From positions 3,068,385 through 3,132,384 of the forward strand of contig OY282377.1 in NCBI GenBank assembly GCA_958295785.1: a DNA stretch of 64,000 bases. The letters run 5' to 3'. Positions 34,217 to 40,345 of the stretch are shown here, one piece after another. A program made the position numbers and the translations under genes. The stretch's first letter is position 1; each line of letters begins with the position of its first letter. Origin of the DNA: an uncultured Latescibacterota bacterium (GTDB lineage: Bacteria > Latescibacterota > UBA2968). The notes beneath the pieces were generated by a model. That model was not told the origin of the DNA. It saw nothing but the letters and a program-made list of their open reading frames with translations, and made no database searches.

Positions 34217-35308
34217 TAGGACTTACGCATGCTGAGTTAAAAAAGGGTGCAATTCCGTAAAATTTATCACTTTGAGGAGGTATCAATGCGCCACCCGACG
34301 CGTTTGGATTACTGTCAGTATCTGCTTAGCAGTCCCCTCAACGATACCCTGACCCATTTCGCCGACCATAGCGAAGGGTTCAGTCATGATAGGATCAACC
34401 GCTATCTCGCCGGTGCGCGTATCCCCCCCCGCTTGGTGTGGGAACACGTCAAAGACCACATCGCGTTGACGCCTGAAGGCGATGTGATCTTTGATGACAC
34501 GGTTTTAGACAAGCGACACGCGCGCAAGATCGCGTGAGTGCGCCGTCAATATAGCGGCAACGCCCAAGGCGTCATCAATGGCATCGGGGTGGTCACATGT
34601 GTCTATGTCAATCCGCAACAGGATCGGTTCTGGTTGATTGACTATCGGATTTATGACCCGCAAGGCGATGGCAAAACCAAATTGGATCATCTCAAGGACA
34701 TGCTCTCTGGGTTGGTCTATCAGAAGCGCCTTCCTTTTACCGGGGTCTTGATGGACAGTTGGTATGCGACTAAAACGGTCATGCGACACAGAGAGCAGAT
34801 GCAAAAAACCTATTCTTGTCCCCTCAAGACGAACCGGCGCGTGGACGATTCGGCAGGCACAACCCCCTACCAGCGCGTAGATAGCTTAACTTGGACGAAA
34901 GCGCAACGCAAACAAGGCAAGCCCATTAAAATCAGAGGGTTTCCCAAAGACCACAAAGTGAAATTATTCCGGGTGGCGTCTGCTGCCAGACGCACGGCGT
35001 ATGTCGTGACCAACGACCATGCTCAAAACGATTCTTCAGGGGTACAACAGGTGTGTCACCAAAGATGGAAAATTGAGCCCTTTCACCGCGAAGTCAAACA
35101 AGTGACCGGGCTTGAAAAGGGTCCATGTCGGTTGGCACGCATGGTACGAAATCATATTGGGTGTGCGATGTTAGTTTGGATAAGACTCGAGCAGGTGGCC
35201 TATCAAACAGGACAAACCATTTATCAAGTCAAATACCGGGGGGTGGCTGACTTCTTGAGACAACAACTCAAAGCACCTCATATTCCAATGGTGATTGCGT
35301 AAGTCCTA
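34217..35308 (+). mobile_element. 1092-bp insertion sequence (IS701/IS4-like), copy 1
   Basis: The ends TAGGACTTACGCA and TGCGTAAGTCCTA are a 13-bp perfect inverted repeat. CTCTT flanks both sides (34212-34216 and 35309-35313) as a 5-bp target duplication. An inverted second copy of identical length lies at 46239-47330. The family name is by protein resemblance to cyanobacterial DDE transposases usually filed under IS701; the 5-bp duplication is not typical of that family. Confidence 0.92.
34286..35302 (+). pseudogene. DDE transposase with in-frame TGA, copy 1
   Basis: One frame of 338 codons runs from the ATG at 34286 (GAGGAGG 5 bases upstream) to the right end, broken by TGA at 34535-34537. 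The first acidic residue is in VIFDDTVLDK before the stop. The second (GVLMDSWYATK) and third (RWKIEPFHREVKQ) come after it. A GTG follows the TGA directly, so reinitiation is conceivable, but one polypeptide would need readthrough. The other copy has the same TGA. Either an ancestral defect was spread by an active relative in trans, or the stop is recoded. Confidence 0.8.
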
Positions 35309-36817: not shown

Positions 36818-37288
36818 ATGCCAAAAGAAATCGAGCGAAAATTTTGCGTGCGAAAGATGCCGAATCTGGCGGCATGCGCGGGCGTGGAAATCGCACAAGG
36901 CTATCTCGCGGTGGGCGGCACAGAGGTTCGGGTGCGGCGCAAGGGCGATCAGTTTTATCAGACCGTGAAAATGGGCACGGGCGTGAAACGCACCGAAGTC
37001 GAGATGGCGTTGAGCCGCGCGCAGTTCGATCTCCTCTGGCCTTTGACAGCGGGCAGGCGCGTAAAAAAAGTGCGGTATGAGTTGACCGAAGGAAAATGGA
37101 CGATTGAGTTGGATGTGTATCGCGGTCGCCTGAAGGGCCTCGTGGTGGCCGAGGTCGAGTTTGCAAGCGTGGCCGAAAGTGCGCGCTTTGTCCCGCCGCC
37201 GTGGTTTGGGCGGGATGTGACGGATGATGATCGCTACAAAAATGCAAACCTCGCCCAGAGGGGACTGCCCGATGATCGCACGCAGTAA
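36818..37288 (+). CDS. CYTH domain protein
   Basis: This 156-residue protein is a triphosphate-tunnel (CYTH) domain. EIERKF at residues 4-9 is the family signature, followed by strands with paired charged residues (EVRVRRKGDQFYQTVKMG, KRTEVEM, VAEVEF) that would line the tunnel. Such domains hydrolyse tripolyphosphate, ATP or thiamine triphosphate, or bind polyphosphate. The ATG follows a GGGGG stretch. The gene overlaps the CHAD gene by 17 bases, so the two are translationally coupled. Confidence 0.9.
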   Translation: MPKEIERKFCVRKMPNLAACAGVEIAQGYLAVGGTEVRVRRKGDQFYQTVKMGTGVKRTEVEMALSRAQFDLLWPLTAGRRVKKVRYELTEGKWTIELDVYRGRLKGLVVAEVEFASVAESARFVPPPWFGRDVTDDDRYKNANLAQRGLPDDRTQ

Positions 37289-38804
37289 AACATATTGCTT
37301 AACCGAGGCACACGGCCGGGAATGGGTCGAGCAACTCGCGCCCAATCGCGTGGTGGCTTTGTCTGGGGAAGAGAAGACCGTGCGGTATTTCGACACATTT
37401 GACTGGCGGTTGTATCGCAAGGGCCTCGCGCTGATGCAAGTGGGGCGCGATGCGTATTTGCAGCGCGTTTCCGATGGCGAAATACGCGGCCAGACCGAGA
37501 TCTCGCCGGAAGGCCGTTTTTGGTGGACGCTCCTCAAAGGCGCGGTGCGCGATAGATTGCGAGACGCACTCTCGGTGCGGGCGTTGTTGCTTCGCGCAAA
37601 GGTGCGGCAAAAGGCGTGCGCGTTTGGCGTTTTGAACGCCGATGAAAAGACCGTCGTTCGCCTGTTTCTCACCCATATCGCGCCCGATGGGATGACGGAA
37701 AACGGACAATCGCTTGCCACATTGACGCTGCGAGAGGTGCGGGGCTACGAGCGCGAGTTTGAGGCGTTGCGCCGCTGTGTCGAAAAATTGGATGTCGCCC
37801 TTGTGTCCGATGGCGCGTTTGAGCGCGTGATGCACGTAGCCGGATGCGTGCCGAGGGATTACTCTTCAAAGCTCAAACTCACCTTGAACCCCGAAGCGAC
37901 CGGGCGCGCGGCCATAAGTGACATTTTGAAATGCCTGCACGCCGCGATGCGCCAAAACGAGGCGGGCATTCGCGCGGATTGGGATACGGAGTTTTTGCAC
38001 GATTTTCGGGTGGCGATTCGGCGCACGCGGTCCGCGCTGAGTCAGATCAAAGGCGTTTTGCCCAAAGATGCGGTGGCCCACTTCAAAGACGAATTTCGGC
38101 AGTTGGGCAGAGCGACCAATCGGTTGCGCGATTTGGATGTTTATTTGCTCGAAGAGAAAACCTATCGGGCGATGTTGCCCCCCGCGTTGCAACCCGGTTT
38201 GGACGCCGTGTTTTCGCGCTTAAAAAGAGAACGCGAGCGCGCTTTGCACGACATGGTGCAAGTTCTCAACTCGCCCGAATACCATGCCCTGATGGATTCC
38301 TGGGCCGCGTTTTTGCATGGCGAACAGGCGGGTGATGCGCCGGCAGCCGACGCGCCTGCGGTCGCTCTTGCGCGGGGGTTTATCTGGAAGCATTTTAAGC
38401 GGGTGCTCAAACGCGGCCGCGCCATTGCAGCCGATACGCCCGACGAGGCCCTGCACGATTTGCGAATCGACTGCAAAAAATTGCGGTATCTGTTGGAATT
38501 TTTTGCCTCGTTTTTTCCCAAAAACAAGATGGACGAGTTGATCGGGCACTTGAAGAAATTGCAGGATAACTTGGGCGCGTTTAACGATTTATCCGTGCAA
38601 CAGTGGGAATTGATGGCCGATTTGAACGCGGCGTTGCCTCGCGGTCAATGCGAGGATCGCTCGCTTTGCGCGGCGGCCATTGGCGGACTTGTGGCGCAGT
38701 TGCACGCCCAACAGCGCGTTGTTCGGCGCGAATTTGCCCATGCGTTCGCCGCGTATAAAAAAAAGAAAAATGTTCGGCTCTATCGCGACTTGTTTGGAAA
38801 ATAG
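37272..38804 (+). CDS. CYTH-like/CHAD domain protein
   Basis: A 510-residue protein. Roughly the first 190 residues look like a second, CYTH-related tunnel fold (EEKTVRYFDT, LMQVGRDAYLQRVSDG, TLREVRGYEREFEALR). The rest is a CHAD helical domain with conserved histidines and basic residues (FLHDFRVAIRRTRSAL, LRDLDVYLLEE, EALHDLRIDCKKLRYLLEFF). CHAD domains bind polyphosphate, and some sit on polyphosphate granules. GAGGGG precedes the ATG at 37272 inside the CYTH gene. A ParA-like gene follows after 2 bases. Confidence 0.88.
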   Translation: MIARSKTYCLTEAHGREWVEQLAPNRVVALSGEEKTVRYFDTFDWRLYRKGLALMQVGRDAYLQRVSDGEIRGQTEISPEGRFWWTLLKGAVRDRLRDALSVRALLLRAKVRQKACAFGVLNADEKTVVRLFLTHIAPDGMTENGQSLATLTLREVRGYEREFEALRRCVEKLDVALVSDGAFERVMHVAGCVPRDYSSKLKLTLNPEATGRAAISDILKCLHAAMRQNEAGIRADWDTEFLHDFRVAIRRTRSALSQIKGVLPKDAVAHFKDEFRQLGRATNRLRDLDVYLLEEKTYRAMLPPALQPGLDAVFSRLKRERERALHDMVQVLNSPEYHALMDSWAAFLHGEQAGDAPAADAPAVALARGFIWKHFKRVLKRGRAIAADTPDEALHDLRIDCKKLRYLLEFFASFFPKNKMDELIGHLKKLQDNLGAFNDLSVQQWELMADLNAALPRGQCEDRSLCAAAIGGLVAQLHAQQRVVRREFAHAFAAYKKKKNVRLYRDLFGK

Positions 38805-38806
38805 GT

Positions 38807-39553
38807 ATGAGTATCTGGGCACTGTACAGCATGAAAGGCGGCGTGGGAAAGACCGCTGCCGCGGTGAATCTGGCCTATGAAGCGGTTCAATCAGGCGCGA
38901 CAGTGTTGCTGTGCGATTTAGATCCGCAAGGCGCGGCGGCCTTTTATTTTCGCATTCGCGCAAAGAAGAAGTTCGGGCGCAAGCGTTTTTTGAAGGGCGG
39001 CAAGCACGTCACGCAAAATATCCGGGGCACGGATTTTGAGGGATTGGACCTGTTGCCATCGGCGATGTCGTTCCGCAATCTGGATTTGGGATTGGACGAC
39101 AGGGCGAAAAACAAAAACCACCTCAAGCGTTTGTTGGCCCCGATGCGGAAAGACTACGATCACATTTTTTTGGATTGTCCGCCCAACCTCACGCTTTTGG
39201 CCGAGCACGTTTTCAGAGCGGCCGATTATGTGGTCGTACCGTGTATTCCCACGACCTTGTCGATGTTGACCCATCAAAAATTGCTGGATTTTTTTTCAAA
39301 AAACCGATTGAAGCGCGAGAAATTGGCGGCGTTTTTTTCAATGGTTGAACAGCGCAAAACCATGCACCGCGAGATGATCGCGCAAGCGAGTGAGCGCGGC
39401 GCGAGATTTTTGACCGCGCAAATTCCCTATACGACAGATGTGGAACGGATGGGCTGGACGCGCCAACCCGTGGCGTGCGTTCGCCCGCGTTCAAAAGGCG
39501 CGCAAGCGTATCGGGCACTGTGGGCAGAATTGCAAACGCTTTTGGCGGAATAA
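38807..39553 (+). CDS. ParA/MinD-type ATPase
   Basis: This 248-residue deviant Walker-A ATPase has KGGVGKTA near residue 10, DLDPQGAA (switch I region) near 38 and FLDCPPNLTLL (Walker B) near 122. Chromosome-partition ParAs are paired with ParB; none is present. The gene follows the CHAD gene by 2 bases, so a role in placing or partitioning polyphosphate granules or a CHAD-coated body is an attractive inference. A strong terminator follows. Confidence 0.88.
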   Translation: MSIWALYSMKGGVGKTAAAVNLAYEAVQSGATVLLCDLDPQGAAAFYFRIRAKKKFGRKRFLKGGKHVTQNIRGTDFEGLDLLPSAMSFRNLDLGLDDRAKNKNHLKRLLAPMRKDYDHIFLDCPPNLTLLAEHVFRAADYVVVPCIPTTLSMLTHQKLLDFFSKNRLKREKLAAFFSMVEQRKTMHREMIAQASERGARFLTAQIPYTTDVERMGWTRQPVACVRPRSKGAQAYRALWAELQTLLAE

Positions 39554-39571: not shown

Positions 39572-39602
39572 AACCCCCCGGCAAAGACTTGTCGGGGGGT
39601 TG
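39572..39602 (-). terminator. Rho-independent terminator between parA-like and tonB genes
   Basis: A GC-rich stem (AACCCCCCG with CGGGGGGTT) is followed on the minus strand by TTTTGTTTT, fitting the leftward tonB transcript. It also lies just after the rightward ParA gene and may stop both. Confidence 0.85.
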
Positions 39603-39661: not shown

Positions 39662-40345
39662 TCACTGCTCCAAGCGGAAGCGGATGGGCATAACGAGATA
39701 GACTTTGACGGGTCTGTCGTTTTGACGCGCGGGCGTGAAGCGGTATTGATAAACGGCCTTGAGGGCGGCTTTTTGAAAAATTTCTTTGCCCCGAACGGCC
39801 GTGGCTTCCGCGATGCTTCCGTCTTTGTCGATCAGCACTTTTATGACGACCGTACCCTCAATGCCCGCCTTGAGCGCGACTTGGGGATATTCGAGTGCCA
39901 CCCGCCCGATGAGCTTGGGCTTTTCTTCCACCATCATATAGTCGAGAATTTCCTCTTCTTCCACTTTGATGGCCGTCTGTGTAGGCGGCGGAGGCACGTC
40001 AATTGAGACGTGGTCAAAGTCGAGGTCCGTGGTCTCGATGGTGACGTCGTCGGGCACGTCTTCGCTTTCGGTTGCAATGGGCACTGCCGGACGCGCAGGC
40101 GGAGGTGGACGGTGAATTTGACGGGTTTCCGGAATATCCAAGGTTTCGATGATGATGGTCTTGCGCTCCACTTTGCGCGGGCTGGCTTTGAAGGTGGGAA
40201 ATGCGATCCCAATGCCCACATGCAAGATGAACGCGACTCCCATGCAAATGCGAAAGGTGCGCTTGTAAGTGCGTTTGAGATCGCACGCCGGATTTTTCGT
40301 GCGCGGGGTCTCAGGCGTAATCCACTGATCGGGTTTCTTTTCCAT
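39662..40345 (-). CDS. tonB: Energy transducer TonB family protein
   Basis: This 227-residue protein has one N-terminal membrane helix (about 34-50, CMGVAFILHVGIGIAF), a proline-rich linker (RPPPPARPAVP, DVPPPPTQ) and a C-terminal TonB domain. That domain includes YPQVALKAGIEGTVVIKVLIDKDG and KAVYQYRFTPARQNDRPV. It would couple the proton motive force to outer-membrane receptors. No ExbBD genes are in the window. The ribosome site (GAGAA) is weak. Confidence 0.9.
   Translation of the reverse strand: MEKKPDQWITPETPRTKNPACDLKRTYKRTFRICMGVAFILHVGIGIAFPTFKASPRKVERKTIIIETLDIPETRQIHRPPPPARPAVPIATESEDVPDDVTIETTDLDFDHVSIDVPPPPTQTAIKVEEEEILDYMMVEEKPKLIGRVALEYPQVALKAGIEGTVVIKVLIDKDGSIAEATAVRGKEIFQKAALKAVYQYRFTPARQNDRPVKVYLVMPIRFRLEQ

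Follow-up and report, generated by a model that had tools for sequence, protein, structure and literature searches.

Why is a gene for a ParA-type ATPase without a ParB partner located in a tightly packed gene group for polyphosphate (polyP)-related proteins? This question was raised by a locus in a stretch of 64,000 nucleotides, referred to here as the window, from the complete, 5.66-Mb genome of an uncultured Latescibacterota bacterium, which carries the genes on its single chromosome. Three genes on the forward strand encode a CYTH, or triphosphate-tunnel, protein (36818 to 37288), a CHAD protein with a degenerate, CYTH-like domain at the N terminus followed by a CHAD domain of the long form (37272 to 38804), and a single-domain ParA-type ATPase of 248 amino acids (38807 to 39553). 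Pfam matches and coordinates confirmed these three coupled genes between 36818 and 39553 as described in a first-pass annotation, including the 17-base overlap of CYTH and CHAD, which is valid for the ATG at 37272, and the 2-base gap between CHAD and ParA. An alternative in-frame ATG for CHAD at 37224 would lead to a 65-base overlap with CYTH, and since some relatives possess only the equivalent of the start at 37272, this downstream start is more likely. A terminator-like hairpin, as judged by a consensus scan only, follows ParA on the forward strand (39572 to 39601, a 13-bp stem with 8 G-C pairs and a 4-base loop), and the next gene, TonB_C (39662 to 40345), is convergent to ParA, which gives the trio the appearance of a self-contained transcription unit. 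An open reading frame for a DDE transposase (Pfam DDE_Tnp_1) was found at 34538 to 35302, approximately 1.5 kb before the start of the operon.

The product of the first gene starts with the ATG at 36818 and the sequence MPKEIERKF, and it matched Pfam CYTH with 24.3 bits, which is above the cutoff. Profile matches to the structures of NE1496 from Nitrosomonas europaea were much stronger (3typ, E = 2.2e-39; 2fbl, E = 8e-39). This enzyme, NeuTTM, is a specific tripolyphosphatase with a Tyr28/Lys52 dyad (PMC3440374). The EIERK motif, which agrees with EXEXK, as well as Y29 and K51, which correspond to the dyad, are all invariant in the alignment, and the window CYTH protein is therefore predicted to be a tripolyphosphatase. 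With an E value of about 1e-38 and the catalytic motifs retained, it resembles NeuTTM closely, but its gene stands together with CHAD-ParA.

The second protein matched Pfam CHAD with E = 1.8e-64. Its AlphaFold2 model (pLDDT of 91) showed the two domains, and the best matches in the PDB were the structures 6qv7 and 6qva of the CHAD protein from C. tepidum (CtCHAD), the latter being the polyP complex, with a TM-score of 0.95 by target. Binding of polyP by CtCHAD has been demonstrated by mutation of His253, Arg256, Arg260, Arg296, Arg418, and Lys441 (PMC6537752). The equivalent residues of the window protein, H259, R262, R266, R302, R421, and K444 when numbered from the ATG at 37224, were kept in all 32 aligned CHAD sequences. 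A CHAD fold combined with conserved His, Arg, and Lys contacts to polyP is the signature of phosins (PMC6537752), so that the window protein is, as far as fold and alignment can tell, predicted to be of the polyP-binding type. Its CHAD domain is about 40% identical to that of CtCHAD and both are of the long form; the differences are the degenerate CYTH-like domain and the nearly constant ParA neighbor. The N-terminal part of the model resembled TTM enzymes, albeit without a Pfam CYTH match in this protein and without a conserved EXEXK motif in the 32 aligned sequences, the first strand in the window protein being SKTYCL. The protein shares the two-domain TTM plus CHAD layout with YgiF from Escherichia coli (5a60 match), but differs from it by the long form of the CHAD domain and by the missing catalytic motif, the latter speaking against an assignment as a YgiF-type TTM-CHAD enzyme.

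The third protein is a member of the ParA/MinD ATPases (Pfam AAA_31, E = 1.2e-33) with the deviant Walker A motif KGGVGKT, including the signature lysine K10, and the Walker A' and B aspartates; K10, K15, T16, D39, and D123 were invariant in 26 aligned sequences. The AlphaFold2 model (pLDDT of 92) displayed the ParA/Soj fold with the highest similarity to 8ray (Z of 31.9) and to Soj (6iub, Z of 31.3 over 245 residues), followed by McdA (6non/6nop, Z of about 28), MinD (27), and BcsQ (26), to which a weak profile similarity also existed. For the comparison with Soj, the positions of two arginine residues were used which we take to be DNA-binding: one arginine is retained as R183, and the second position is changed and not conserved. 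The CHAD-linked ParAs formed one clade (SH-aLRT of 100) in a tree with a limited set of outgroups, Soj-like, other ParA, and Mrp-like proteins, all from Latescibacterota. Members of a profile built from 26 of these proteins scored at least 345 bits, and every other ParA in five genomes reached at most 142 bits. By these sequence comparisons, the linked ParAs are a distinct ParA clade.

The only protein with a ParB_N domain in the complete genome is encoded at C1:335412, adjacent to a different, canonical ParA (C1:334559). The initial description of the window ParA as an ATPase without ParB was correct, and neither an adjacent nor a matching ParB, as in ParABS systems, was found.

Evaluation of the gene arrangement across genomes needs to consider that the scan of the genome collection was keyed on two CHAD peptide patterns only. 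It yielded 80 loci: ParA followed CHAD in 70 of them, two of these being damaged, and in one more that was cut by the contig end; 2 loci ended too early and 7 lacked ParA, giving ParA directly downstream of CHAD in 71 of 78 informative loci, many with a 4-base overlap. The records are labeled to about ten phyla, among them Pseudomonadota, Thermodesulfobacteriota, Chloroflexota, Latescibacterota, Acidobacteriota, Calditrichota, Verrucomicrobiota, Rhodothermota, and Deinococcota, with some doubtful labels of metagenome-assembled genomes (MAGs). The MAG records L094, L100, L102, and L103, for instance, are titled Gemmatimonadota, which is probably wrong, since they seem to correspond to genomes placed in the genus or order of the window genome (Latescibacterota). 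In the window genome and 40 relatives, a ParA orthologue with at least 53% identity was present in 15 of the 41 genomes, in each of which it followed CHAD immediately, and a search of 64 Latescibacterota genomes with the subfamily profile returned the same 15. Recurrence in all 15 genomes of the phylum with this ParA and in about ten phyla indicates an arrangement that is more than chance, and the correlation of the CHAD distances with the ParA distances (r = 0.91) that both genes were inherited together.

When the family of the window genome was compared with the other family of the order, the flanking genes were unmatched and the CHAD-ParA pair stayed. The CYTH gene was not found in these relatives of the other family, and a separate CYTH gene was present in only 27 of the 80 CHAD loci, upstream or downstream depending on the lineage. 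The stable unit is CHAD-ParA and not the trio, so that from the proposed three-gene system the pair stood the comparison across genomes, and the CYTH gene did not; confinement of the ParA-CHAD adjacency to the window genome, which would have spoken against the first-pass annotation, was not observed. No CHAD-ParA fusion occurred among the long open frames of the genomes G377 and G053. ParA appeared to be decaying in two loci, as a 102-residue remnant between CHAD and SixA (L146:6665-6970) and as an internally interrupted gene (L103:6693-7433, genome G017).

In the Gammaproteobacteria, 57 of 369 genomes carried the ParA family with 58 matches, 43 of which were directly downstream of CHAD and all 43 on the same strand. 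The other 15 were located away from CHAD, one directly after PPK1 and the others as orphans, and six of the genomes with a nonadjacent ParA had no CHAD match. CHAD occurred in 51 of the 57 genomes with the ParA family and in 75 of the remaining 312 (P = 3e-21), and PPK1 in 52 of 57 versus 166 of 312 (P = 1e-8), both values being uncorrected for shared ancestry.

Genes of polyP metabolism were neighbors in many of the 80 loci, PPK1 in 16, SixA in 18, PPX in 9, and PPK2 in 7. In L098, L110, and L146, PPK1 and CHAD shared a 4-base overlap, and in L100, L102, and L103, PPK1 followed ParA; a gene of the PPX family ended 14 to 59 bases before CHAD in L105, L107, L108, and L109. The gammaproteobacterial loci included the runs CHAD-ParA-PPK2 (L228) and CHAD-ParA-PhoU-like-Pho4 transporter (L234). 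PPK1 of the window genome is encoded elsewhere, away from the window genes. Most loci were without an adjacent PPK gene, which leaves CHAD as the constant partner of ParA. Together with the conserved polyP-binding residues, these neighbors bear out the suspected connection of the operon to polyP, and the link of CHAD-ParA to polyP is very strong.

Another group of neighbors was composed of DNA-binding-type proteins. In the Acidobacteriota-type loci, genes for helix-hairpin-helix (HhH) proteins rich in lysine are located directly upstream of CHAD (L135:4485-4850; L120:4422-4886; L141:4317-4994), ending 13 to 34 bases before it, and in L131:318-2321 the HhH and Lys-rich domains are fused to CHAD, with ParA following in a 4-base overlap. 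L141 is devoid of ParA and has PPK1 and PPX nearby. Five Methylococcaceae-type loci contained a gene for a small, H1-like Lys/Ala-rich protein 200 to 410 bases upstream of CHAD-ParA (L150:4426-4674; L151:4397-4597; L153:4458-4682; L162:4423-4647; L167:586-816). In total, 9 of 10 Lys-rich open reading frames in the 80 loci either were fused to CHAD or lay no more than 500 bases upstream of it, with P of about 4e-14 in a simple binomial calculation over 1.5 Mb of strand sequence that treats related loci as independent, which they are not. A small ribbon-helix-helix (RHH) protein with a Lys-rich tail preceded CHAD in Ruegeria, Nioella, Paracoccus, and one Chromatiales locus, and on Paracoccus plasmids it was part of the run RHH-CHAD-ParA-CYTH-NUDIX (L222:3299-6651 in NZ_CP067170.1; L223:3288-7249 in NZ_CP157012.1). 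The stretches scanned around the window genes did not contain any partner of the Lys-rich, HhH, or RHH type. Precedents are AlgP, an H1-like protein that spaces polyP granules in Pseudomonas aeruginosa (PMC9239181), and PhaH, which tethers PHB granules by its HhH domain (PMC13052382). The ligand of the Lys-rich tails might be polyP instead of DNA. Pairing of the polyP-binding CHAD with modules of the DNA-binding type has occurred repeatedly, ParA being the constant module, and the recurrence of such proteins in other lineages supports a nucleoid-linked role.

A probable explanation for these data is a system with CHAD-ParA at its core, by which polyP granules coated with CHAD are anchored to the nucleoid and spaced on it. 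The CHAD protein would coat or cross-link polyP through its conserved basic pore, and ParA in the ATP form would be bound to the nucleoid and contact the CHAD coat, either directly or via a small DNA-binding adaptor. Cycling of ParA on hydrolysis may then hold the granules on the nucleoid, space them along it, and allow their inheritance with it, as performed by McdA with carboxysomes. Tripolyphosphate that arises as an end product when granules are turned over is probably removed by the separate CYTH enzyme. That ParA binds DNA and contacts CHAD, and that granules are moved and spaced, are steps that we infer. With slightly less assurance, although still leaning toward it, we assume a dedicated ParA-family ATPase for polyP granules in about ten phyla, with CHAD-marked cargo, ATP-driven positioning, and lineage-specific H1-like, HhH, or RHH adaptors.

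The McdA/McdB system is comparable in that the gene for a ParA-family ATPase of the same fold is linked to cargo genes across species, here to CHAD, without a ParB. The putative cargo differs, being polyP granules, and the window ParA is only 18% to 19% identical to the McdA structures. Known partners of ParA/MinD proteins typically carry a positively charged, disordered N terminus (PMC10241942). Unlike McdB, the CHAD proteins do not possess such a terminus: the first 20 residues contain 0 to 6 lysine or arginine residues, mostly balanced by aspartate or glutamate, and the fold of the window model begins already at residue 5. This composition rules out CHAD as a canonical ParA partner by way of a basic N-terminal tail, and a tail of the known kind was found only in the RHH protein of the Rhodobacterales. 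The contact between ParA and CHAD and the binding of DNA by ParA are the weakest steps of the positioning reading, and the absent tail, the lost second Soj arginine, the 15 gammaproteobacterial ParAs away from CHAD, the lack of a Lys-rich, HhH, or RHH partner in the stretches scanned around the window genes, and the possible binding of polyP by the Lys-rich tails are points against it. The positioning interpretation of the first-pass annotation is partly supported.

Alternatively, ParA may be a nucleotide switch, similar to BcsQ in cellulose export, that acts on polyP synthesis or breakdown, on PPK1, PPX, or the loading of CHAD, and has no role in positioning. The missing canonical tail and the profile similarity to BcsQ would agree with such a switch, as would PPK1 or PPX within the same gene run in many loci and a subfamily ParA directly after PPK1 without an adjacent CHAD (L211:2671-5689). 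It is nevertheless unlikely because structure and sequence of the window ParA are nearer to Soj/ParA than to BcsQ (Z of 31 versus about 26), CHAD has recurrent neighbors of the DNA-binding type in other lineages, and CHAD, not PPK, is the constant neighbor of ParA. Rather improbable is a static tether between polyP and DNA, or a layer preventing granule fusion, formed by ParA and the HhH, H1-like, or RHH proteins without gradients or movement. AlgP (PMC9239181), the HhH-CHAD fusion, and the H1-like proteins in the Methylococcaceae speak for this, but a purely static tether does not need the Walker A, A', and B residues, which were invariant in 26 of 26 sequences. AlgP also spaces granules evenly, with an H1-like Lys/Ala-rich DNA-binding tail as in the neighbors of the Methylococcaceae CHAD, but is no ATPase, whereas the window system possesses ParA and no H1-like neighbor.

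Partition of a plasmid or another mobile element by ParA, with CHAD as a passenger, is very improbable. Its basis would be the Paracoccus gene set on large plasmids, with an upstream RHH protein of weak profile similarity to ParG, and a few members of the ParA family on other plasmids. The window pair is on a chromosome, no ParB is encoded beside ParA, the single ParB of the genome has its own ParA, the adjacency to CHAD is held across phyla while the flanks change, and the genes around CHAD-ParA are those of polyP metabolism. Plasmid partition as the main role was rejected because ParB is lacking, the genes are chromosomal, and the neighbors belong to polyP metabolism.

The adjacency of ParA and CHAD is already known from Acidithiobacillus, where a folD-ppk-parA-CHAD cluster is conserved within the genus and ParA was read as a plasmid or chromosome partition protein, with no granule role drawn (PMC10892726, PMC6416229). 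In gene order, this cluster resembles the CHAD-ParA loci, since parA is again the neighbor of ppk and of a gene for a CYTH-CHAD protein. A literature search, with most subscription papers and preprints outside its scope, returned no proposal of a ParA-driven placement of polyP granules. The cargoes named for the seven ParA/MinD ATPases of Halothiobacillus in the considered part of that study (PMC10241942) do not include polyP, and a review from 2025 treats the use of energy in polyP placement as open (PMC13052382). If the positioning reading is true, a whole clade of ParAs without an assigned cargo gains one. The CHAD-ParA pair is a candidate for the placement and inheritance of polyP granules in culturable hosts, which include Paracoccus aestuarii DSM 19484, P. 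marcusii, Ruegeria species, Methylomonas lenta, and Desulfoprunum benzoelyticum. In P. marcusii, a second CYTH gene is located just downstream of the RHH-CHAD-ParA-CYTH-NUDIX cassette.
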